Of a stretch of 8,990 bases of DNA, positions 1 to 8,990 are shown piece after piece (within the stretch, counting starts at the first letter, position 1; the number at the start of each line of letters is the position of its first letter). The position numbers and the translations under genes were made by a program. This DNA is from Candidatus Rifleibacteriota bacterium (lineage in GTDB: Bacteria; Riflebacteria; Ozemobacteria; Ozemobacterales; Ozemobacteraceae): contig JAKQKW010000389.1 in assembly GCA_029560455.1 (NCBI GenBank), positions 1 through 8,990 of the forward strand. The letters run 5' to 3'. The notes beneath the pieces are model-generated. The model worked only from the letters and a program-made list of their open reading frames with translations. It did no database searches and was not told the origin of the DNA.

Positions 1-893
1 CCGGTGAGAAAGTAACAGCGATCGGTAAAAACCTGTTTGAAAGGAATTTCGAACACCTTCGAACCGGCAAAATATCTGCGACTGACGAGCTCGCGCAGTT
101 CCTTGCGGTCCATCTGGCTTGTTGAAGAAGCTTTTTTCGACACCGGCAGGCGTACAATCTTATCAGCCGGCAGGTGGCGAACCAGGTGTTCGAGTTCAGT
201 GCCTCTCTGCATCAATACAACCTTGTCAGGCTGCACGATGTCGAGTTTGGCTTTTTTGATGGCACGACCACCATCGCCCTGTACCCATCCGGTGGTGTCG
301 ATGATGAGAGCATCGGCTTCTTTTTCGGCCTTGCGCAGCATATCGACCAGCCCGGTAATGGCCGGTACAAAGTGCAGCCCCGGCGAATGGGCGCCGAGCA
401 TATACATATAGGTCGGGTTGATCTCAGTCAGAAAGATCGCCGGCTTTTTGAGAATCAGCATGCCAAAAGTGCCGGGGCAACCAATGTCTGACTGGCCGGT
501 ATCGCAGTCGAGAATCGCCGTTTTACCGACCTTTTCGAGCAGGCGGTTGGCCAGATAGGTGCTGAAAAAGGTTTTGCCGGTGTCGACTTCGCCGAGCACC
601 AGAACCTTATACAGAGAGCCCTTGACCTTTTCGCCGGCGATACGGTCGGCGAGTTGATCCCACTCGGCCGGAATCGAGCTGGCTTCCATTTTAGAGAGAG
701 CTTCGGGCTGAGCGTCTACTTCGCAGACACTGTCTTCGATGCCGAGCAGCGGTATCTTCTTGCCGACCGGAACCTCGACCTTTTCGCCAGCACCGACCTT
801 AGCGGCAATGATTTCGATGCTGCCGCCGGAAACGGTAACGGTCGCGGGGCCATTCAGCAGATAGAATTCATTTTTTTTGATTTTAAGCTGCAT
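1..893 (-). CDS. Clp1/Grc3-type polynucleotide 5'-hydroxyl kinase (3' end cut by window edge)
   Basis: This reading frame starts at the ATG at 893 and stays open to the left edge, giving 297 full codons; the C-terminus is missing. Residues 1-60 look like the N-terminal beta domain of Clp1/NOL9 proteins (FYLLNGPATVTV). The kinase domain follows: Walker A GEVDTGKT at 101-108, the DCDTGQSDIGCPG segment at 129-141 (compare DxDxGQ in Clp1), a LGAHSPG segment near 166-172, and TTGWVQGDGG at 200-209 (compare the TxGW motif of the family). Known members move the gamma phosphate of ATP or GTP to the 5'-OH end of RNA or DNA; yeast Grc3 acts in rRNA processing and archaeal Clp1 is an active kinase. It starts two bases after the stop of the preceding gene, with GGGG-type SD bases inside that gene's end, so translation is probably coupled. 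Family assignment is strong; the substrate is unknown. Confidence 0.85.
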   Translation of the reverse strand, partial: MQLKIKKNEFYLLNGPATVTVSGGSIEIIAAKVGAGEKVEVPVGKKIPLLGIEDSVCEVDAQPEALSKMEASSIPAEWDQLADRIAGEKVKGSLYKVLVLGEVDTGKTFFSTYLANRLLEKVGKTAILDCDTGQSDIGCPGTFGMLILKKPAIFLTEINPTYMYMLGAHSPGLHFVPAITGLVDMLRKAEKEADALIIDTTGWVQGDGGRAIKKAKLDIVQPDKVVLMQRGTELEHLVRHLPADKIVRLPVSKKASSTSQMDRKELRELVSRRYFAGSKVFEIPFKQVFTDRCYFLT

Positions 894-895
894 GA

Positions 896-1312
896 TTATT
901 TCTGCCCCTTGTCGAATACCAGTGAAGGCCACATTTCTTTGAGGACGTTGGTATTGATGACGGTGGCACGGCTTATTTCGCGCATGCCGAGATCTAGTTC
1001 ATCTTCTGAAGTCATCAGTTTGACTGCTTTCAGTTCGATGCCTTCGCCGTCTTTGCCCGATACGGTTCCGCACAGGCAGTCATCGCCGCTTTTGATGAAA
1101 ACGCGCTGACCGACTTCGAGTTCTTCGGGTTTGACGTTCTTTGTCACGCCACCGATACACATATTGACGATACCCGGGTAAAGCGGCACGTCTTCATAGA
1201 GCTTGACCAGCTGAGTTACCAGTTCTTTAACCAGCATCGGGTCTTTTTCTTCTTCGACGATGCGCTTGAGATACTTGATCAGACCGGGAAAGTCAGTTTC
1301 TTTAAATGACAT
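896..1312 (-). CDS. Unknown small protein between DHH phosphoesterase and Clp1-like kinase
   Basis: I do not recognise this 138-residue protein. Residues 1-45 are charged and should be helical (LIKYLKRIVEEE, LVKELVTQLVKLYEDV). Residues 65-120 look like a small beta barrel: VGQRVFIKSGDDCLCGTV at 67-84, then an acidic turn (KDGEG) and further strands up to TVINTNVL. That pattern resembles SH3-like or Sm-like folds, but the resemblance is by eye only. No signal peptide or membrane span is visible. The ATG at 1312 has AGGA about seven bases upstream. The start lies 10 bases after the DHH gene's stop, and the kinase starts two bases after this gene's stop, so the three genes should be made together. 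A binding or adaptor role for its two enzyme neighbours is possible but unproven. Confidence 0.8.
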   Translation of the reverse strand: MSFKETDFPGLIKYLKRIVEEEKDPMLVKELVTQLVKLYEDVPLYPGIVNMCIGGVTKNVKPEELEVGQRVFIKSGDDCLCGTVSGKDGEGIELKAVKLMTSEDELDLGMREISRATVINTNVLKEMWPSLVFDKGQK

Positions 1313-1322
1313 CAGGTTTCCT

Positions 1323-2747
1323 TTATTTTTTCAGATACTCGAGACCGAGCTTGTCGGCGCGGGCCTTCTGGGCGTCATCGAGTTTGCCGGCGGCAGCAAG
1401 GCGGTCATGCAGCTGCATTTCGCTGAGCACTTCGGTAACTCTGGTGAGAACGTCGCAGAAAGTGACCTTGTCGGTCTTGAAAGTGCATTCAGCCGCTTTC
1501 GGGTGACCGCCGCCGCTGATTTTATCTTTGTAATCGGCATAGCGCTTCTGCATTGAATCCTGCAGCTCGCCGCAGAACTTGCCTGAATGGACGCGATCGC
1601 CTGAGCCACGCACCGATACATGCGTGTAGTCATTGCTGACCGAACTGACCATGATGATCTGAGCAAGCTTGTCGCCGGCTTTCTGTTTGAGTTCGAACAG
1701 TTTGATCGAACCGATCATCGGCAGCAGCGGCACTTTCGGGCCGACGAAAAGATAAATCGAAGTTTCGTCGAGCTTGAGAATGCGGGCCGATGAGTCGAGA
1801 ATGCGGTTGGCGCTTTCCCAGTCCTGCAGGAAGTAGGCGAAAATCTTTTTGAGATTGCCCTGCTGCGGCTGCGGCAGAAGATTCACGAAATCATCGAGGG
1901 ATTTGATCTTTTTGACTTCGTTCATCTTGTCGGCAATGCCTTCAAGAGCGGTGGTGATACATTCGGCGTGGTTGACGTTCTTGAGCGCCGGTTCGCGGTC
2001 ATTGTAGAAATACGAGAACCCGCCGCCGCCGGTGGCATGCACATACTCGGTCACGCGCGAAAGCAGACAGGTGTGATCACGCTGTTCGGCGTCGAACATC
2101 GTCGGGCGTTCCTTTACCAGAGTCAGCAGATTCTTGAAATTCTGGCCGTATTCGACAAAGAAAGGCTTGGCAAAGTCAGCGAGAATGCCTTTGACCGGTT
2201 CAATAGCCCAGTCACCCTTGAGGCCCATCATGCACAGGAAATCGTCGAAATCTTCGCGTACACCGGCGAGAGCGGCGATACCGTGCGCGAGAATCGAGGT
2301 CGAGCACCAGGTATAAGCCGGCAGACTCGGGTTGAAATAGGTGCACTTTTCGGGGGCTGCCGGTGTCGGGTGATGATCGACAATGTAAACCGGCAGTTTA
2401 TCGGCAAAATTGTTATAGGGGGCTAGTGTGCCCTTGTCGAGCAGAAAGATCGCTTTGGCGCCGGTGGTTTCTTTCATCGCTGCTTCGAGTTGATCGGGCT
2501 GCAGCAGAAAGCCTTCGGGCATTTTCAGGTTAACTTTCCAGCCTTTTTTCTGCAACACTCGTTTAAAAATCAGGCCGCTGGTGATGCCATCCGGATCGTC
2601 GTGGCTGAAAACAAGGGCTGTGCCGGGTTTTTCGATTTCCTGCAGAATCTTCTGCAGGCCGGGGTTATTGGCCTTGAGTTTTTCCCATTGTGATTTGTAG
2701 CTCTCAACATCCTTGAATTCTGTCTGCAAAATGACCGCTTTTTCCAT
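1323..2747 (-). CDS. DHH/DHHA1 phosphoesterase, RecJ-like
   Basis: This 474-residue protein has the full set of DHH-superfamily motifs: HDDPDG at 49-54, the motif II aspartate in FLLDKG (D104), the DHH signature at 124-126 (VDHHP), a GDW aspartate at 179, and a C-terminal DHHA1 domain with SVRGSG at 377-382 and SGGGHPKAA at 411-419. These residues bind two metal ions, usually manganese, and cleave phosphodiester bonds. The length fits archaeal-type RecJ-like proteins; bacterial RecJ is longer and carries an extra OB domain that I do not see here. It probably acts in the cytoplasm as an exonuclease on DNA or RNA, but NrnA-like cleavage of short oligonucleotides cannot be excluded. The ATG at 2747 has an AGGA site six bases upstream. 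It is first in the DHH, unknown protein, kinase block and has its own promoter just upstream. Confidence 0.9.
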   Translation of the reverse strand: MEKAVILQTEFKDVESYKSQWEKLKANNPGLQKILQEIEKPGTALVFSHDDPDGITSGLIFKRVLQKKGWKVNLKMPEGFLLQPDQLEAAMKETTGAKAIFLLDKGTLAPYNNFADKLPVYIVDHHPTPAAPEKCTYFNPSLPAYTWCSTSILAHGIAALAGVREDFDDFLCMMGLKGDWAIEPVKGILADFAKPFFVEYGQNFKNLLTLVKERPTMFDAEQRDHTCLLSRVTEYVHATGGGGFSYFYNDREPALKNVNHAECITTALEGIADKMNEVKKIKSLDDFVNLLPQPQQGNLKKIFAYFLQDWESANRILDSSARILKLDETSIYLFVGPKVPLLPMIGSIKLFELKQKAGDKLAQIIMVSSVSNDYTHVSVRGSGDRVHSGKFCGELQDSMQKRYADYKDKISGGGHPKAAECTFKTDKVTFCDVLTRVTEVLSEMQLHDRLAAAGKLDDAQKARADKLGLEYLKK

Positions 2748-2756
2748 AATACATCC

Positions 2757-2780
2757 TTTCGGTTATTTAATTACCCGAAA
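2757..2780. repeat. Inverted repeat between promoter and start of the DHH gene
   Basis: TTTCGG at 2757-2762 and CCGAAA at 2775-2780 form a perfect 6-base inverted repeat around a 12-base AT-rich centre. It lies directly after the predicted -10 element and runs to the ribosome binding site of the DHH gene. The right arm is upstream of the expected transcription start, so a DNA operator fits better than an RNA hairpin. No U-run follows on the minus strand, so it is not an intrinsic terminator. Confidence 0.35.
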
Positions 2781-2810
2781 AGTATAGTTTGGATTAAAGT
2801 CTCTGGTCAA
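2781..2810 (-). promoter_or_regulatory. Sigma70-like promoter for the DHH-kinase block
   Basis: On the minus strand TTGACC (2805-2810) and TATACT (2781-2786) are separated by 18 bases. Five of six bases match in each box. The -35 box lies inside the last codons of the MBL gene. Transcription should begin near 2774 and leave a leader of about 27 bases with the AGGA site of the DHH gene. It would let the second block be made independently of the competence genes, although read-through from them also looks possible since no terminator is visible. Confidence 0.55.
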
Positions 2811-3750
2811 CTACAAATCTGTAATCTCTTGTATCTTTTCCGCCAATGAAAAGACGGATATTGCCGTGTCGATCGGTGCGATAGAGCTTGGTTCCGACCC
2901 TTTCATGATGGGAAATGGCGCGCGGTGACGGGTGCCTGAACGCATTGCTGCGACCAACGCTGATGATTCCAGTTTCTGCCTTGACCAGCTGCAGGAATGG
3001 CATATAATCGCTGGTGTCAGCGCCATGATGCGGCACCTTGAGAATCTGGCTGCGAATGCCCTCGCCGTATTTCATGATCTCACGTTCGGCATCCTCTTCG
3101 ATATCGCCGGCAAGAAGCGTCTGAACCTTGCCGTAACGCAGCAACAGAGCAACCGACATATTGTTCACTTCTGAGTATTCTTTTGAACTGACCGGCTTTT
3201 CGGGATTGATAACCTGCACAAACAGCTCGTTACCCCATTCCAGCACATCGCCGGCCTTAACACTTATGCGTTGAATCCGGTCTTTTTTGCATATTTCATC
3301 GTAGGTCTGCCAGGCTTCAGTGTTGAAGGTCGAAGGCGTCTCATAGATCTTGTCAACCTCGAACAGCCTGAGAACCGGAATAACACCACCCAGATGGTCG
3401 TTGTGCCAGTGCGTGATCACCAGACCGTCCAGCCGCGAAATCTTCTGACTGCGAAGATAATTCTGAATCAGTTCGCGACCCTCACGCCTTGCATCGGCAA
3501 CCGGAACATTGACACCGCCGTCAACGAGAAAAACCTTGCCCTTCGGGGTACGTATCAGAATCGCATCACCCTGCCCGACGTTAACAAAGTCGATACGCAG
3601 CCCGGGATTGAGGCTGACGCTGACAAGGCCGCCATGATCAGGGCTGAGAACCAGTGCCCACACAAAAATAACGACAATCAGCAGCATGAAGAAAACAAAA
3701 TTGGTTTTCTTCGACTGAAACGATTTCTGTTCGTAACCGTATCTGCTCAT
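2794..3750 (-). CDS. Membrane-anchored MBL-fold hydrolase of the ComEC C-terminal type
   Basis: This 318-residue protein has one membrane span at about 18-36 (NFVFFMLLIVVIFVWALVL) followed by an MBL domain that probably faces outside the cytoplasm, as a basic stretch (QKSFQSKKT) precedes the span. The domain matches ComEC/Rec2 C-terminal domains: FVNVGQGDAILI at 55-66, LVDGG at 75-79, the metal-binding THWHNDHLGG at 113-122, AGDIEEDAE at 214-222, VPHHGA at 239-244 and the late FRHPSP at 271-276. All expected metal ligands are present. In ComEC such a domain is thought to be the nuclease that degrades the non-imported DNA strand. The start is four bases after the ComEA-like gene's stop and two genes after comEC, whose own MBL domain has lost these residues, so it may replace that activity. 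A different phosphodiester substrate is possible. Confidence 0.9.
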   Translation of the reverse strand: MSRYGYEQKSFQSKKTNFVFFMLLIVVIFVWALVLSPDHGGLVSVSLNPGLRIDFVNVGQGDAILIRTPKGKVFLVDGGVNVPVADARREGRELIQNYLRSQKISRLDGLVITHWHNDHLGGVIPVLRLFEVDKIYETPSTFNTEAWQTYDEICKKDRIQRISVKAGDVLEWGNELFVQVINPEKPVSSKEYSEVNNMSVALLLRYGKVQTLLAGDIEEDAEREIMKYGEGIRSQILKVPHHGADTSDYMPFLQLVKAETGIISVGRSNAFRHPSPRAISHHERVGTKLYRTDRHGNIRLFIGGKDTRDYRFVVDQRL

Positions 3751-3754
3751 GCCG

Positions 3755-4375
3755 CTATTTCACCTCGACAAGGTTGATAAATTGTTTAAGGGCCTTATCT
3801 GTGACTCCGGGCACCTCTTTAAGATCTTCGAGCGAAAAGAAGCCGCCATTGCGATTGCGAAACTCAACTATTTTTTCGGCCATCTTTTTGCTGATACCCG
3901 GTAGAGCATTGAGTTCTTCTTCGCTAGCAAAATTAAGATTCAGCTTGTCGCCCCAGGCTGCCTGCCCTGAATGCCCGCCAATGGCGGTTGCATAATTCTC
4001 AAGAATGCGCAGGCGCCTTTTGGTCATGCCCTGAACGTTGAGCAACTCGTTCATGTCTTTTATCTCGCCCTTTTCTTTAATGTAGTCATAAACCCGCTTC
4101 GACAGGGTCGGTGTCATCTCGGGCAATGCCCTGATACTCTTGAGATCGGTGCGGTTCAGGTTAAGTTTACCGGCGTTTTCGGTTTCATTGAAGTTTGAAC
4201 CCTTCACCAGAACCGTCTGATCGGTGAGGCCGGCAATGTGGTCGATCTGCCTGAGCAGCTGCAGATTCTGGTTTCTGATGGTGGTAACCCTGACGATCAG
4301 CATCATGATGCCCATCGCCAGCATGGTGATGAGCAGAACGAATGCCAGTTTTTCGAGTCGGGTTAATACCATCAC
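3755..4375 (-). CDS. comEA: ComEA-like membrane-anchored protein with two HhH units
   Basis: The protein has 206 residues from the GTG at 4375, or 205 from the ATG at 4372. An N-terminal membrane span covers about 10-30, a linker follows, and two helix-hairpin-helix units lie at about 69-130 and 144-203. The second is a good ComEA-type unit (KLNLNFASEEELNALPGI, then FSLEDLKEVPGVTDKAL). The first has the same KLNLN opening but weaker hairpins (LPEMTP, VQGMTK). ComEA binds double-stranded DNA and hands it to the ComEC channel; most ComEA proteins have a single unit, so a tandem pair is less usual. The start overlaps the comEC stop (GTGA with GTG, TGATG with ATG), which indicates coupled translation. 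AAGGA lies six bases before GTG and nine before ATG, so the two starts cannot be separated by sequence alone. Other HhH proteins remain possible, but the ComEC neighbour supports this call. Confidence 0.85.
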   Translation of the reverse strand: MMVLTRLEKLAFVLLITMLAMGIMMLIVRVTTIRNQNLQLLRQIDHIAGLTDQTVLVKGSNFNETENAGKLNLNRTDLKSIRALPEMTPTLSKRVYDYIKEKGEIKDMNELLNVQGMTKRRLRILENYATAIGGHSGQAAWGDKLNLNFASEEELNALPGISKKMAEKIVEFRNRNGGFFSLEDLKEVPGVTDKALKQFINLVEVK

Positions 4376-7323
4376 TGCTGGTCCTTGACAAAAATATTTG
4401 CCTGCACCCGGTTACGGCTCTGGTCAACCTGCACAGCGCCGCTTTCAGAAGTCATATATACCTTGACCGGCCACTGCCTGAACCTCTGCGGGTAGCTGCG
4501 GCTGCGCGAGGTAATGGTTGATGCCAGATGATAGTTTTCCATCAGCCACGACGACGGAAACCGGTAACTGACAGCCACTCCCTCAGGATTCTGAGATTTG
4601 ACAAACTTCTCGAACGCTTCAATCGGTGCCGGCAGGTCGGCGACAAAAATGAAGTCAGGCTTGAAATTGACAATCTCTTCAAGTTTATAGGCATTGCCTG
4701 GGAGAAACAGATAATTTCGTTCTTTGTGCGAAATTTTAAGTATCAGCCCGTCATAATACTGCTGGAAACTGCCATCTGCCGTTGTGGTCTGCGGTGCCAG
4801 CACTTCGATCTGGCCTGCCGCGTCAAGAATTTTGTCACCGGCTTTAACCCTCTGCACCGGAATCTTGTAACGATAGACATCTTCGATCAGCTGGTTGTAT
4901 GAATCGAAAGCGAGTTCCCAGAAATAGGATGGCGGAACCCCTGCATTCATGCCGCTTTTGATGCGCTTTTCAAATTTGAGGTCGCCAAGAAGAAAGGTGC
5001 GGGCATAGTCTTCGAAACTTATTCTGCGGCCATCTTCAGGCAGCGGAAACGGAACGTAAATTTTATTGACCCGGTAATTGGCCATTACCGAACGCAGCCC
5101 GGAAATTCTCTCGGGCAGAGCCGAACTGAGAATTACCGCATTGACCTCGCGTGCCTGTTTGCCCGAAAGGGCGGGCTGCACAACCCTTTCGCCGCGGTCT
5201 GATCCGGCCAGCGGGTCATTGAGCCCCGCATCGATGAGGGCAACACGACCGTCAGCCTCGATAAGCAGCGATGAGCCATAGCCGACATCAAGCATGGTCA
5301 GGCGCATTTCCGGGGTTCTCTCGATGCCGCTGAGCATAAATACGCCACTGCCGACGAGCCCGATCATTATAAAAATGCCGAGAGCCGCCAGCGAATTGCG
5401 GTATTCGTCGTCTTCCCAGAGGTCAGAGACTGCGGCAGTTATTGCCAGCGCCCAGGTTTTGATGTCGCTGTAAAAATAGGCAAGGTGCAAAATAAGGTAA
5501 TAAAACAGCAGGGCTCCGAAGCCCGGCTGCGATACTCTCGGAAACGGAATCAGAATCGCGAAAAACGATGCCATGCCGAGGAAAAATTTGACGCCCAGCC
5601 AGTTGGCAGCATTGAGCACCAGTGCCAGCGGCATGCCGACAACCGGTATAAAAGCTCCGATCAGGCCGGCAATCAGCCCGAGCTGGACGATAACACCAAT
5701 CAGCGGAATCGCGATCAGATTGGCGATCGGTGAGGCCAGCGAAAACTGCCCGAAATAATAAGCCGAAAGCGGCCCCATCATTGCTACCAGAATGGCGACC
5801 TGTGCCGAGAGAAAAGACTGCAGCCAGCCAGGCAGCATTTCGAAAGCGAAACTCTGAAAGGTTGAGCGATCAGACAGCCGGCTGGCGAGCGACAGGGTAA
5901 CGAAAAAATACAGCCCGGTGAGCGGAAAGAAATACGGGTGCAGCACCAGCGACTTGCCGACAATGATGGCGAGATAGAAAAAGAAGGTGGCGGCAGCGGC
6001 AACCAGCAGGCCCGGCCCGCGCAGCATGCGTTTGAGAATTCCCTGTGAGGGCTCTGAAAACATTGCGAGCGCGTATATTGCCATGACCGAAAGGGTAAAA
6101 CTCGGCTCGGTAAGCTGCAGCGGGCTCATAAACAGTATAAAGACACAGGCGACCGAAAGAGAAAACAGCACCGACATCTTGAAACCAAGACCGGCCAGGT
6201 AGGCCCGCGCCAGTATAAAAAGGCTGTTCATCAGGGCAGCACGCACCGCAGAGCTTGGCCAGCCGACAATCAGAGCAAAAGTAAATAGAGAAAACACTAT
6301 GATTGGTGCAAAAACACGCAATGGCACTCTGAACATCGCGAAAATACCGTAAAGCAGGCCGGCAATGATGGTGACGTGCAGCCCGGAAACGGCCAGAACG
6401 TGCGAAACGCCGGTCATTCTGAATTCCTGGCCGATTTTAGCCGGCAGGCCCCCCTTCAGGCCGAGAAGAACCCCGCCAAGAAAGCTCGATTCAGGGTAAG
6501 GCATCGTCTGTTTGATGACTTTCAATATCTCTGTCTTAACGTGCAAAGCGAATCGATACCAGATCGAACCGCCTTCGACTTCTTCGATTACCCTTAAAGA
6601 AGCTTTGCGTGGCACAATCCGGATCGTGCGAAAGATACCGCGGTTGCGCAGATGACTTTTATAATCGAGCGAACCTGGGTTGCGGCGCTCAGATGCTTCT
6701 GAAAGCTGACCGTCAATTTCGATTACCTGATTGAATCTGACTTCTCTGAAGGCATCGGTATCTTCAAAAACCTGTGCAAGAATCAGGCCGCCGGTAACCG
6801 GTTCAGCTTCAGACTGATCGACAACGGTTTCATATTCGGGCTTTTTCTTGCGACTGCGCCCCTCTTCGCTGCCACCGTCGACTCTGACTCTTTTGCGGTC
6901 GACGCGACGAATCGTTTCGGGCTGCACAAGAACCTCGAGGTGATCATTTTTCAATACCGGTTCTTCAAGAATGCGGCCTCTGATTCGCCAGTTGGTGCTT
7001 TCGTCGTGCTTTTCACATATCGTTTGCAGATGACCACGATAGTCGTGTCGCAGCTCTGAAATATAGCGGAAAGCCCCGAAAGAGCCGGCAGTCAGCAGCA
7101 GAAAGACCAGCGTCAGAATCGGCAGGGCTTCTTCATCTTCTCTGATAGCACCAAGATTGCCCGAAAGAAGATTCGAGCTGTGTCGATACCAGAACGGAAT
7201 CGCGGCGCAGAGGCCGAATACGCCGGTAAGAAGCAGAAACAGACCGCTGGCCGTGGCGCCGCTGATAACGGCAAAAGCCATACCGGAAATGAAGGCAAGG
7301 GTAAGAAGAATAAAGGTCAGCAA
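4372..7323 (-). CDS. comEC: ComEC/Rec2-type DNA uptake channel with degenerate C-terminal MBL domain
   Basis: This 983-residue membrane protein is long for the family. Two N-terminal spans cover about 1-45, with another near 67-85, then a soluble OB-like region runs to about 240 and includes a basic insert at 138-175. The competence domain covers about 275-600: FLGGVLLGLKGGLP at 281-294, VSHVLAVSGLHV at 306-317, SSAVRAALMN at 357-366 and SPIANLIAIPLIG at 531-543. It forms the inner-membrane pore for incoming single-stranded DNA in transformation. The C-terminal MBL domain keeps the fold markers LDVGYGSSLLI (678-688) and LIDAG (696-700), but the metal motif THxHxDH reads SSALPER at 733-739, and no PHHG or HPSP follows. 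The domain is probably catalytically dead. The start is a TTG at 7323, one base after the preceding stop; an in-frame stop a few codons upstream leaves no ATG. The gene overlaps the ComEA-like gene. Confidence 0.93.
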   Translation of the reverse strand: MLTFILLTLAFISGMAFAVISGATASGLFLLLTGVFGLCAAIPFWYRHSSNLLSGNLGAIREDEEALPILTLVFLLLTAGSFGAFRYISELRHDYRGHLQTICEKHDESTNWRIRGRILEEPVLKNDHLEVLVQPETIRRVDRKRVRVDGGSEEGRSRKKKPEYETVVDQSEAEPVTGGLILAQVFEDTDAFREVRFNQVIEIDGQLSEASERRNPGSLDYKSHLRNRGIFRTIRIVPRKASLRVIEEVEGGSIWYRFALHVKTEILKVIKQTMPYPESSFLGGVLLGLKGGLPAKIGQEFRMTGVSHVLAVSGLHVTIIAGLLYGIFAMFRVPLRVFAPIIVFSLFTFALIVGWPSSAVRAALMNSLFILARAYLAGLGFKMSVLFSLSVACVFILFMSPLQLTEPSFTLSVMAIYALAMFSEPSQGILKRMLRGPGLLVAAAATFFFYLAIIVGKSLVLHPYFFPLTGLYFFVTLSLASRLSDRSTFQSFAFEMLPGWLQSFLSAQVAILVAMMGPLSAYYFGQFSLASPIANLIAIPLIGVIVQLGLIAGLIGAFIPVVGMPLALVLNAANWLGVKFFLGMASFFAILIPFPRVSQPGFGALLFYYLILHLAYFYSDIKTWALAITAAVSDLWEDDEYRNSLAALGIFIMIGLVGSGVFMLSGIERTPEMRLTMLDVGYGSSLLIEADGRVALIDAGLNDPLAGSDRGERVVQPALSGKQAREVNAVILSSALPERISGLRSVMANYRVNKIYVPFPLPEDGRRISFEDYARTFLLGDLKFEKRIKSGMNAGVPPSYFWELAFDSYNQLIEDVYRYKIPVQRVKAGDKILDAAGQIEVLAPQTTTADGSFQQYYDGLILKISHKERNYLFLPGNAYKLEEIVNFKPDFIFVADLPAPIEAFEKFVKSQNPEGVAVSYRFPSSWLMENYHLASTITSRSRSYPQRFRQWPVKVYMTSESGAVQVDQSRNRVQANIFVKDQQ

Positions 7324-7324
7324 A

Positions 7325-7513
7325 TCAATCCGTTCCCTTTTCCTGTTTTATATGTGGGTAATATTCAAGGTTCGACAGCAGATTGTCTTTAACACGGTAA
7401 TCAGATTTGACCACCAGCACCAGACCGCCGGCAATCAGCGAAATTACCACCAGAAGGATCAGAAATTTCGTGCCGTCTGCGCCCGGGTCGTTTTCAGGCT
7501 TTTTTTCTGACAT
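7325..7513 (-). CDS. Small single-span membrane protein, unknown
   Basis: This 62-residue protein has a polar N-terminus of 16 residues, one hydrophobic span at about 17-35 (KFLILLVVISLIAGGLVLVV) and a charged tail of about 27 residues. I do not recognise a family. The span has glycines near its middle and no cysteine lipobox or signal-peptidase site, so it is probably a stably inserted membrane protein with the tail outside. The ATG at 7513 has an AGGA site nine bases upstream, at the very end of the preceding gene. Its stop is one base before the comEC TTG start, so comEC translation may depend on it. It could be an accessory subunit of the DNA-uptake complex, but that rests on position alone. 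Confidence 0.7.
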   Translation of the reverse strand: MSEKKPENDPGADGTKFLILLVVISLIAGGLVLVVKSDYRVKDNLLSNLEYYPHIKQEKGTD

Positions 7514-7524
7514 CTGTCAGGGTC

Positions 7525-8304
7525 CTATTCCATGGCTGTCCAGGCGTTGGTTTTCTGTACCCAGTCACTGAAAAGGGTAAAGAATTTTTCAAAATCGAAA
7601 CTGGTGATCTGTCTGAAGCAGGCTTCTGAATCCATGTCTTCAAGTGCGTACATCAGAGTTGAATATTTGGTGAAAAAACTGTCGCAGTAGATACCAAGCA
7701 GCAGCCTGACCATGTAGAAAGACTGAAAAAGCGCCAGTTGCCGACGATTGGCATCCGGAATCAGGTTGATATCTTTGATCATGATCTGCGGTTTGATCAG
7801 CTGATTTGCCTTCTGGGCTTCCTGGAGGCGGGTCCAGCCGGTCTGCAGCCATTCACGGCTGTCTTTGCGAATCTTGTAGGCTGCCTGCAGAGCAAAGCCT
7901 TCGCGCAGCCACGATGGCGTACGCCATTGTCTTATCTGCAGTTCACGCTCGTTGACGCGGTTGTTGAAAAACAGATGACCAAGTTCTCTGGCAGCAACTT
8001 CACCGATTGCCGTGTCAAGCTTTTCGGCAAGCAGAAAGATTGAGTTGCTCTGGTAGTCGAGGCGAATCGCTTCCCCGACTTTGGGGGCCTGGCCAGTGAC
8101 CTTTTCGAATTCAGACTCGCTTTTGATGATGTAAAAAGCTCCGGAAGGGTCATCCTGAAAGTTGAAAACCTGTTTAAAAAGACTTGTTGAACGATCAAGG
8201 CTGTCGAGCAGTTCTTCGGCGGCCAGGCTTTCGCTGATATCAAAGAAAACAGAGTAGTTTCTCAGTTCAAACTTCTGATTTAAAGATAGTGCTGACGCTT
8301 GCAT
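7525..8304 (-). CDS. Peptidase-MA-like (gluzincin) protein with altered HExxH motif
   Basis: From the ATG at 8304 this is a 259-residue protein. The middle resembles peptidase-MA-like metallopeptidases: a FYIIKSESEFEKVTG segment at about 57-71, then AARELGHLF at 104-112 and TPSWLREGFALQAAY at 129-143. In active members the metal motif is HExxH with a downstream WxxEG glutamate. Here the first histidine is arginine (R106), while E107, H110 and E135 are kept. The AGA codon differs from both His codons at all three positions, so a simple read error is unlikely. It may be inactive as a peptidase. No signal peptide is visible, unlike many relatives. I chose 8304 over the upstream in-frame ATG at 8340 because GGGAG lies six bases before 8304, and the predicted -10 box overlaps the codons just after 8340. 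It leads the competence block. Confidence 0.8.
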   Translation of the reverse strand: MQASALSLNQKFELRNYSVFFDISESLAAEELLDSLDRSTSLFKQVFNFQDDPSGAFYIIKSESEFEKVTGQAPKVGEAIRLDYQSNSIFLLAEKLDTAIGEVAARELGHLFFNNRVNERELQIRQWRTPSWLREGFALQAAYKIRKDSREWLQTGWTRLQEAQKANQLIKPQIMIKDINLIPDANRRQLALFQSFYMVRLLLGIYCDSFFTKYSTLMYALEDMDSEACFRQITSFDFEKFFTLFSDWVQKTNAWTAME

Positions 8305-8331
8305 GACATTCTCCCGGTTCAGATTAGCTAC

Positions 8332-8360
8332 AGCATACAATCAACCGGTTGTTTTATCAA
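8332..8360 (-). promoter_or_regulatory. Sigma70-like promoter for the competence block
   Basis: On the minus strand TTGATA (8355-8360) and TATGCT (8332-8337) are spaced 17 bases apart. The -35 box matches consensus at five positions and the -10 box at four. The start point would be near 8325, leaving a leader of about 21 bases with GGGAG at 8311-8315 before the ATG at 8304. The spacer contains the perfect palindrome CAACCGGTTG at 8342-8351, a possible operator. Confidence 0.5.
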
Positions 8361-8367
8361 GTCAGCA

Positions 8368-8416
8368 AGTGAGATTGACTTCCATAGCACGGTAAATTAT
8401 ATTGATTAGTGAGATT
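8368..8416. repeat. Two direct copies of AGTGAGATT, 40 bases apart
   Basis: AGTGAGATT occurs at 8368-8376 and again at 8408-8416. The first copy overlaps the left end of the plus-strand -35 box, and the second covers the expected plus-strand start point. The 40-base spacing is close to four helical turns, so two bound proteins would face nearly the same side of the DNA. This is a candidate paired operator for the divergent region. Confidence 0.4.
8375..8403 (+). promoter_or_regulatory. Sigma70-like promoter for the cNMP-binding/ATPase gene
   Basis: TTGACT (8375-8380) and TATATT (8398-8403) are separated by exactly 17 bases, with five of six matches in each box, making it the strongest promoter in the window by eye. 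Transcription should begin near 8410 and give a leader of about 36 bases. The leader holds a small stem-loop (AGATT at 8412-8416 with AATCT at 8422-8426) before the AGGA site at 8437-8440. The -35 box lies 14 bases from the -35 box of the divergent competence promoter. Confidence 0.65.
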
Positions 8417-8445
8417 CTAAAAATCTACATAAAAACAGGATCATT

Positions 8446-8990
8446 ATGGAACTTGATAAAATTGAACTGTTTTCGTCTCTCAGTCATGGAGAAATAACCC
8501 AAATCGCCGGTATCGCCCGCAGGGTGCACCTTGCCCGCGGTGAGGCTGTTTTCAGTGAGGGCGATTACGAAAAAAACATTTATATAGTTGAAACCGGCCA
8601 GGTCGAAATTTACAAAAGAACACCGCTTAACGGCGAACAATCGATCGCCATCATGAAAAATGGTGATTACTTCGGTGAAATGGCCTTTTTCGAAAAGGTC
8701 TCCACCCGTTCAGCCTCAGCCAGAACCCTGCAGACCACCTCGCTGATCGTCATCGAGGGGCCTGATTTCGAAAGGCTTATTCACAGTTATCCCTCTATCA
8801 GCCTTAAGCTTCTGGCCACTCTGTCTTCGCGACTTCGCGAAACCAACCGCATGATTACCAGCGGTCCGGGCCCCCAGAGCGCCGGTCAGGCCCAGGTTGC
8901 CAGAAAAGAATGTCAACTGCTGACTGTTGCTTCTGCAAAAGATGGCTACGGCAAAACCACTTTTGCCACCTCTCTTGCCCGCATGCTGGC
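8446..8990 (+). CDS. Cyclic-nucleotide-binding domain fused to MinD/ParA-type ATPase (3' end cut)
   Basis: The frame opens at the ATG at 8446, five bases after AGGA, and runs off the right edge after 181 codons. Residues 5-130 form a CRP-type cyclic-nucleotide-binding domain: LFSSLSHGEI at 8-17, EGDYEKNIYIVETGQVEIYK at 38-57, and the phosphate-binding cassette FGEMAFF at 76-82 with TRSASART at 87-94. The cassette keeps the glutamate and arginine that contact cAMP or cGMP in CRP-like proteins. A proline/glycine/glutamine linker (about 139-152) follows instead of the DNA-binding helix-turn-helix of CRP. Then LLTVASAKDGYGKTT at 158-172 gives a deviant Walker A motif with the extra lysine (K165) typical of MinD/ParA ATPases. 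The likely role is a nucleotide-sensing ATPase that positions or regulates something at a membrane, pilus or nucleoid. The target is unknown, and the ATPase part is only seen at its first motif. Confidence 0.85.
   Translation, partial: MELDKIELFSSLSHGEITQIAGIARRVHLARGEAVFSEGDYEKNIYIVETGQVEIYKRTPLNGEQSIAIMKNGDYFGEMAFFEKVSTRSASARTLQTTSLIVIEGPDFERLIHSYPSISLKLLATLSSRLRETNRMITSGPGPQSAGQAQVARKECQLLTVASAKDGYGKTTFATSLARML

Follow-up and report, generated by a model that had tools for sequence, protein, structure and literature searches.

What does a polynucleotide 5'-kinase of the Clp1/Grc3 type do next to a RecJ-like gene in a bacterium? The question is raised by a contig of a Candidatus Rifleibacteriota bacterium (JAKQKW010000389.1), whose positions 1 to 8,990, the whole stretch of 8,990 nucleotides that was analysed and that is called the window in the following, encode the kinase (KIN), a small protein of no known family (SML), and a RecJ-like putative nuclease of the DHH/DHHA1 phosphoesterases (DHH). 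According to the open reading frame list and the sequence, the three genes are all located on the minus strand in the order DHH-SML-KIN and are spaced by 10 and 2 bases. The tight packing described in the first-pass annotation holds, and so does its view that the RecJ-like gene apparently shares a transcription unit with the kinase. DHH, SML, and KIN form, with near certainty, a conserved module. Their adjacency is conserved far beyond chance, with SML and KIN being the tightest pair and DHH being a frequent partner that is also found independently.

A scan of a species-level genome collection with a KIN alignment, which used two short kinase motifs and detects this subfamily only, found KIN at 45 genome loci. 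According to the submitters' labels these belong to Riflebacteria, Ozemobacter, Elusimicrobia, Endomicrobia, Hydrogenedentota, Mcinerneyibacteriota, UBP18, Caldiserica, Spirochaetes, Hadarchaeum metagenome-assembled genomes (MAGs), and others. SML is located directly upstream of KIN at 44 of these, and at the remaining locus (L002) the contig starts 31 bases before KIN. DHH is present within the fetched stretch at 34 loci, directly upstream of SML in 27 cases and with intervening genes in seven. Three of the 11 loci without DHH (L002, L022, L024) are on contigs that are cut at most about 1.6 kb upstream of SML or KIN, and five (L029, L031, L043, L044, and L039, the latter taken as G068) have the orthologue elsewhere in the genome. 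No DHH was found locally or elsewhere in the genome for L019 (taken as G280) and L040, and for L042 the local stretch only was covered and not its genome. In the Endomicrobia, DHH is sited elsewhere than KIN. The trio thus recurs well beyond this genome, and confinement to it, which the first-pass annotation had named as a refutation, does not apply.

The same picture is found within single groups. These genome searches scored first-look candidates (part of them in the large sets), so that absences are not absolute, and PF16575 matches below the cut-off were left out of the KIN counts. Among 39 Riflebacteria genomes, KIN over the cut-off, SML, and DHH (E up to 1e-40) are present in 19 each, KIN together with SML in 18, and all three in 16. 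The KIN/SML pairing has two exceptions, G289, where the contig ends, and G276. DHH is missing in G279 and G280, which have SML-KIN, and is cut by the contig end in G288 and G290. In G276 (L119:8881-9451) KIN residues 1-343 are gone and SML is frameshifted while DHH is intact; this is a MAG and an assembly error is possible. In two Riflebacteria genomes (L215, L217) a metallo-beta-lactamase-fold (MBL) gene is directly followed by SML-KIN, and no DHH was found there or elsewhere in the genome. In an even sample of 247 Elusimicrobiota genomes out of a larger group, six have KIN over the cut-off, the same six have SML, and DHH is present in those six plus seven others. Five of the six SML-encoding genomes had supplied rows of the SML profile, on which the kinase family does not depend. 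The 28 Hadarchaeota genomes contain KIN over the cut-off in 14 (a 158-aa remnant in G307), SML in 12, always adjoining KIN, and DHH adjoining KIN or SML in 12. G323 has DHH-KIN without SML, and G320 has SML-KIN without DHH. Both genomes of the G017 phylum encode all three proteins.

As control, 297 relatives of G022 were used, comprising Hadarchaeota and other genomes that were taken to be archaea. Clp1 genes over the cut-off are present in 81 of these, 14 of them Hadarchaeota. From 54 of the other 67 genomes 55 Clp1 genes were examined. The flanks covered were about 3.5 kb on each side for 40 of them, or shorter where the contig ended, and about 1.4 kb upstream for the other 15. None of the 55 has SML or the DHH orthologue within these flanks; one has a different DHH gene there (E 2e-12). 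SML itself was found at E <1e-20 in 12 of the 297 genomes, all of which are KIN-bearing Hadarchaeota. Because SML is present in the very six Elusimicrobiota genomes that have KIN and is found with none of the 55 other archaeal Clp1 genes, SML and not DHH is, judged by sequence, the strictest partner of the kinase. The grouping of kinase and DHH into one module, as it was first proposed, therefore stands with respect to their linkage at 34 of the 45 loci but has to be changed with respect to the closest partner, which is the 138-residue protein.

In the kinase tree, the 56 module KIN sequences are separated from the 55 other Clp1 sequences with a support of 0.974, and L127 alone sides with the module KIN. 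L127 (5154-6470, minus strand) is a second Clp1-type gene of G008, which has no SML and follows adenosine deaminase and cytidine deaminase genes. The Hadarchaeota KIN form a separate deep branch, which argues against recent transfer. The KIN of L015, a genome labelled Elusimicrobia, falls among the Riflebacteria, which might be due to transfer or mis-binning. Mirror-tree correlations were between 0.71 and 0.91 for the first 43 loci and between 0.91 and 0.94 for the 40 loci left after L111 (where the DHH match is another archaeal gene), L021, and L032 (partial genes) had been dropped. Shared descent alone can give such values, and they are therefore not taken as evidence for interaction.

KIN is cut by the window end so that about 297 residues are visible, compared with about 417 aa in most relatives. 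It matches CLP1_P from Pfam with 124.5 bits (cut-off 26.6), and the Walker A and TxGW motifs seen at first reading are intact, the motifs in the window being GEVDTGKT (Walker A), DCDTGQ (Walker B), TTGW (clasp), and DRK-x-LR (lid). The key residues of these motifs are invariant or nearly so across 18 relatives, and the same motifs are the commonest among the variants listed for the 56 module KIN. The kinase matches the PDB structures of Clp1, NOL9, and Grc3. Its profile aligns to the N-terminal part of Clp1 from position 16-18, and a second match, of the C-terminus to NOL9, is very weak (2 bits). KIN is probably an active 5'-OH kinase. It shares the CLP1_P domain, Walker A and B, the TxGW clasp, and the lid with Clp1, Grc3, NOL9, and the Ts-Clp1 of Thermus scotoductus but has flanking N- and C-terminal parts compared with the latter, which has about 27 kDa (PMC6777427). 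In addition, KIN differs from the known Clp1 kinases by forming a separate group among the compared sequences, accompanied by SML and often DHH, and, unlike for Clp1, Grc3, and NOL9, no splicing or rRNA-processing partner was recognised beside it. In the rRNA-processing complexes Grc3-Las1 of yeast and NOL9-LAS1L, a Clp1-type kinase is likewise combined with a nuclease. Las1 is a HEPN endonuclease, whereas the partner nuclease of KIN would be a DHH/DHHA1 protein, and none of the eight scanned window proteins matches Las1/HEPN.

DHH matches PF01368 with 30.4 bits (cut-off 28.1) and DHHA1 with 23.5 bits, slightly below the cut-off of 25.9, with the GGGH and SxR motifs conserved. The predicted structural model fits RecJ better than NrnA, and suggests a RecJ-type core rather than one of the NrnA/GdpP type. 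In predicted core fold, DHH/DHHA1 motifs, and SxR it is thus like bacterial and archaeal RecJ (DrRecJ, MjaRecJ1/2, PfuRecJ/GAN). However, it differs from these by scoring far under the equivalog cut-offs (TIGR00644 34.5 versus 396.9 bits; archaeal NF053576 49.8 versus 360), by its site beside a 5'-kinase, and by the OB domain of RecJ (PF17768), which was not found in the DHH of the window but is matched by the RecJ genes of L120 and L030. The nearest folds of the model include both 5'-3' RecJ and 3'-5' MjaRecJ2. Concerning the 5'-phosphate pocket of DrRecJ (Arg109, Arg280, Ser371, Arg373), the SxR motif is retained as S378 and R380. Arg109 has no evident counterpart by motif spacing, which carries little weight because the RecJ-type gene of L120 seems to be without it as well. 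The profile alignment of DHH with RecJ spans only 114 columns and maps the pocket no further than the DHH domain; it assigns no position to Arg280. A role in cyclic dinucleotide (c-di-NMP) or phosphoadenosine phosphate (pAp) turnover is possible but less likely, given the higher scores of bacterial RecJ folds. DHH is probably an oligonucleotide exonuclease. That many RecJ-type enzymes favour a 5'-phosphate, as the first-pass annotation stated, holds for some of them: according to PMC5615345, 5'-phosphate stimulates Methanocaldococcus jannaschii RecJ1 and the 5' activity of RecJ2. Directly upstream of DHH in L120 (10045-12267, minus strand) and L030 (5610-7919) there are RecJ genes with an RNase_T/DEDDh domain between DHH and DHHA1 and the OB domain behind. 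L121 and L123 probably carry the same arrangement, the domain scans covering L120 and L030.

SML does not match any Pfam family at E 0.1, including any Sm/LSm/Hfq family. Its predicted structure contains three strands that are assigned in the model plus a helical half, and is weakly Sm/LSm-like. Compared with Sm/LSm RNA-binding proteins, SML has this extra helical half and no sequence-family match, and the likeness might reflect an arrangement that is common among proteins. Four Elusimicrobiota genomes (L052-L055) gave weak matches to SML (E 1e-4 to 1e-3), which were dropped because the scanned one, L053, is a serine hydroxymethyltransferase; in a repeat search three of them matched again and L054 did not. 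Two weak archaeal matches within frames of 452 and 554 aa (G581, G554) were dropped as similar.

The surroundings of the module differ between the groups. Salvage genes were counted within the fetched stretches by BLAST to labelled examples, which had been named by Pfam and NCBIfam. Outside the Riflebacteria-type group, 14 of the 26 loci have one or more genes for nucleoside phosphorylases of purines or pyrimidines (PNP, PyNP), methylthioadenosine phosphorylase (MTAP), adenosine deaminase, or dGTPase. In L025, genes for PNP, PyNP, DHH, MTAP, adenosine deaminase, SML, KIN, and dGTPase are found on one strand within 12 kb. DHH genes that do not adjoin KIN (L120-L125) have phosphorylases in five of six stretches, with none in L124, a contig of 5.2 kb. 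In all seven Elusimicrobiota genomes that encode DHH without KIN and SML, the gene after DHH on its strand is of the MTAP/PNP type; the two genes overlap in five genomes and are 31 and 223 bases apart in the other two. These seven stretches also contain TIM-barrel genes (7/7), kinase-like genes (6/7), adenosine deaminase (4/7), and, on the opposite strand with two genes between, a ComEC-like gene (3/7); Pfam domains were scanned for L208 only. Paired genes for a TIM barrel like that of xylose isomerase and for a small deoxynucleoside-kinase-like protein are present twice per salvage stretch around DHH and MTAP (L208:4046-9896; also L210, L211, L212, L025, and L028). The Riflebacteria-type loci have ComEC- or ComEA-like genes in 14 of 19 cases and salvage genes in none. 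In the Hadarchaeota locus L117 the cassette is placed between archaeal RecJ-like and Pcc1-like genes in a KEOPS/ribosomal setting (TsaD/Kae1, RIO-type kinase, Ham1, S15, class II tRNA synthetase, S3Ae), and the neighbours at the other Hadarchaeota loci are similar in length and order. Salvage genes were found neither near the Hadarchaeota cassette (0/10 loci) nor beside the other archaeal Clp1 genes; the queries were bacterial and the threshold was E 1e-8, so that archaeal versions that have diverged may have been missed.

In the window, MBL-, comEA-, and comEC-like genes are located directly upstream of DHH on the same strand (Table 1). The best database matches to KIN, SML, and DHH have 95%, 99%, and 99% identity, respectively, the best SML match being labelled Candidatus Rifleibacterium sp., and the window is from a relative of Candidatus Rifleibacterium. 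The promoter-like site TTGACC-18-TATACT ends 33 bases from the DHH start codon. Such sites are not in excess in the window (7 versus 6.1 in shuffles). However, when 17 upstream regions of the Riflebacteria type were compared (that of the window plus those of all 19 loci except L002, L015, and L019), TTGACN-N16-18-TATA[AC]T was present in 13, with 0.007 expected by shuffling; this value is not a probability because the compared sequences are related. The site before DHH is thus conserved in Riflebacteria, and its recurrence supports the single promoter for DHH-SML-KIN that had been assumed; read-through from the comEC side is also possible.

Table 1. Positions of the module, its promoter-like site, and the upstream genes in the window
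Feature	Position	Strand	Length	Remarks
KIN, Clp1/Grc3-type polynucleotide 5'-kinase	1..893	-		ATG at 893; CLP1_P 5.9e-36
SML, no known family	896..1312	-	138 aa	N-terminal half helical, beta part weakly like Sm/LSm
DHH, RecJ-like DHH/DHHA1 phosphoesterase	1323..2747	-	474 aa	
Sigma-70-like promoter TTGACC-18-TATACT before DHH-SML-KIN	2781..2810	-		10/12 positions match
MBL-fold protein, upstream neighbour	2794..3750	-	318 aa	Lactamase_B 7.9e-16
ComEA-like helix-hairpin-helix protein	3755..4375	-	206 aa	HHH_3 3.5e-29
ComEC-like DNA-uptake channel protein	4372..7323	-	983 aa	Competence, DUF4131; Lactamase_B below its cut-off

What could such a module do? We tentatively propose that DHH-SML-KIN is a nucleic-acid end-processing and salvage module, a reading whose chance we put somewhat below even. 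KIN would phosphorylate the 5'-OH ends of single-stranded RNA or DNA fragments in an ATP-dependent way and would thereby open them to an exonuclease that uses 5'-phosphates. SML would be a dedicated partner of KIN, probably a nucleic-acid-binding or regulatory subunit that is produced in step with it. The RecJ-like DHH would then trim the fragments to mononucleotides, which in bacteria could enter nucleoside and nucleotide recycling (phosphorylases, deaminases, dGTPase), or the module could follow DNA uptake (ComEC/ComEA). The proposal draws on the conserved cassette, the SML-KIN bond, the intact catalytic motifs, the predicted RecJ-type core, and the salvage or uptake setting, all read from sequence; from these we infer catalysis, the order of the steps, physical association, and the scavenging role. 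'Phosphorylate, then degrade' is plausible, and it is possible, although not quite an even bet, that the product of KIN feeds DHH. The first-pass annotation had thought of 5'-OH ends made by toxins, RNases, or damage. Because the neighbours of DHH are salvage genes in Elusimicrobiota and DNA-uptake genes in Riflebacteria, scavenging or recycling fits the bacteria better than a toxin or damage response, and the PADLOC defence models do not match P0001 (a full-length KIN relative), SML, or DHH. The mechanism first proposed would thereby be retained but serve another purpose. For recycling as the main role in bacteria the odds seem balanced. An Sm-like protein in a permanent complex with a Clp1-type kinase, which phosphorylates scavenged or spent 5'-OH RNA and DNA and passes it to a RecJ-like exonuclease as a prokaryotic counterpart of Grc3-Las1 for recycling, would be an unlikely, far-reaching version.

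The nearest solved relatives of KIN, which are Clp1, NOL9, and Grc3, could also indicate that SML-KIN is an RNA 5'-kinase complex acting on tRNA or rRNA processing products, like Grc3/NOL9 and Clp1 of eukaryotes, with DHH being a 3'-5' or 5'-3' RNA exonuclease and the salvage genes mere operon mates. The Hadarchaeota setting, scanned at one locus, leaves RNA processing a possibility, and the weak Sm/LSm-like part of SML and the preference for RNA of MjaRecJ2, a near fold of DHH (PMC5615345), point in the same direction. However, among the Pfam-scanned neighbours, which are part of all neighbours, there is no gene for an RNA ligase, RtcB, a cyclic phosphodiesterase, or splicing, and the bacterial setting is one of nucleosides and DNA uptake. 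There is also no general need for such a function, given that 241 of the 247 Elusimicrobiota genomes and 20 of the 39 from Riflebacteria have no KIN over the cut-off, although it is present in both genomes of the G017 phylum. RNA maturation or quality control is rather unlikely.

The deaminases suggest that KIN might instead be a salvage kinase for small molecules such as nucleosides, dinucleotides, or another nucleoside derivative, with DHH being a nanoRNase or phosphodiesterase that supplies the substrates. In L127, adenosine deaminase, cytidine deaminase, and the second Clp1-type kinase of G008 form one run, and in L025, L028, and four loci of Endomicrobia the gene directly before SML is of the adenosine deaminase type. 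But KIN retains the clasp and lid of polynucleotide kinases, the DHH model is closer to RecJ than to NrnA, and several of these operons already have a deoxynucleoside-kinase-like gene. This function is improbable. Incoming or damaged single-stranded DNA ends could also be trimmed for recombination and not for food. The ComEC, ComEA, and MBL genes upstream in Riflebacteria, the RecJ-type fold of DHH, and the RecJ or RecJ-like genes that neighbour DHH in Endomicrobia, L030, and Hadarchaeota would fit such processing of transformed DNA or DNA repair. However, the Pfam-scanned neighbours include no recombinase, ligase, or single-strand-binding protein and an SbcD-like gene in L018 only. This reading also leaves the deaminases and phosphorylases unexplained, and Ts-Clp1 prefers RNA (PMC6777427). 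DNA repair or processing of transformed DNA is likewise improbable.

Judged by titles and the beginnings of abstracts, no paper on the end-processing and salvage module was found in the open-licence literature. PMC6777427 on Ts-Clp1 contains neither 'neighbor' nor 'RecJ' and has 'operon' only within a reference, and a term search in PMC10470531 gave no mention of Clp1 or kinase. In the papers found, Ts-Clp1 is the one characterised bacterial Clp1-type kinase, and no cellular role is assigned to these enzymes. A kinase group that has a constant, unnamed partner and often a nuclease as neighbour in both bacteria and archaea offers a concrete testable system for a cellular role. In addition, it points to SML as a small unannotated protein family, and to a way in which lineages that are hardly cultured might recycle RNA or DNA with 5'-OH ends.

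There was no match to Rfam at gathering thresholds or to the plasmid collection in 'near' mode. The 271-aa protein at 7525-8340 on the minus strand has weak matches alone, to M1/MA-type metallopeptidases. At 8446-8988 on the plus strand a cyclic-nucleotide-binding domain is followed by the weak start of a ParA/MinD-like P-loop domain, which is cut by the window end.

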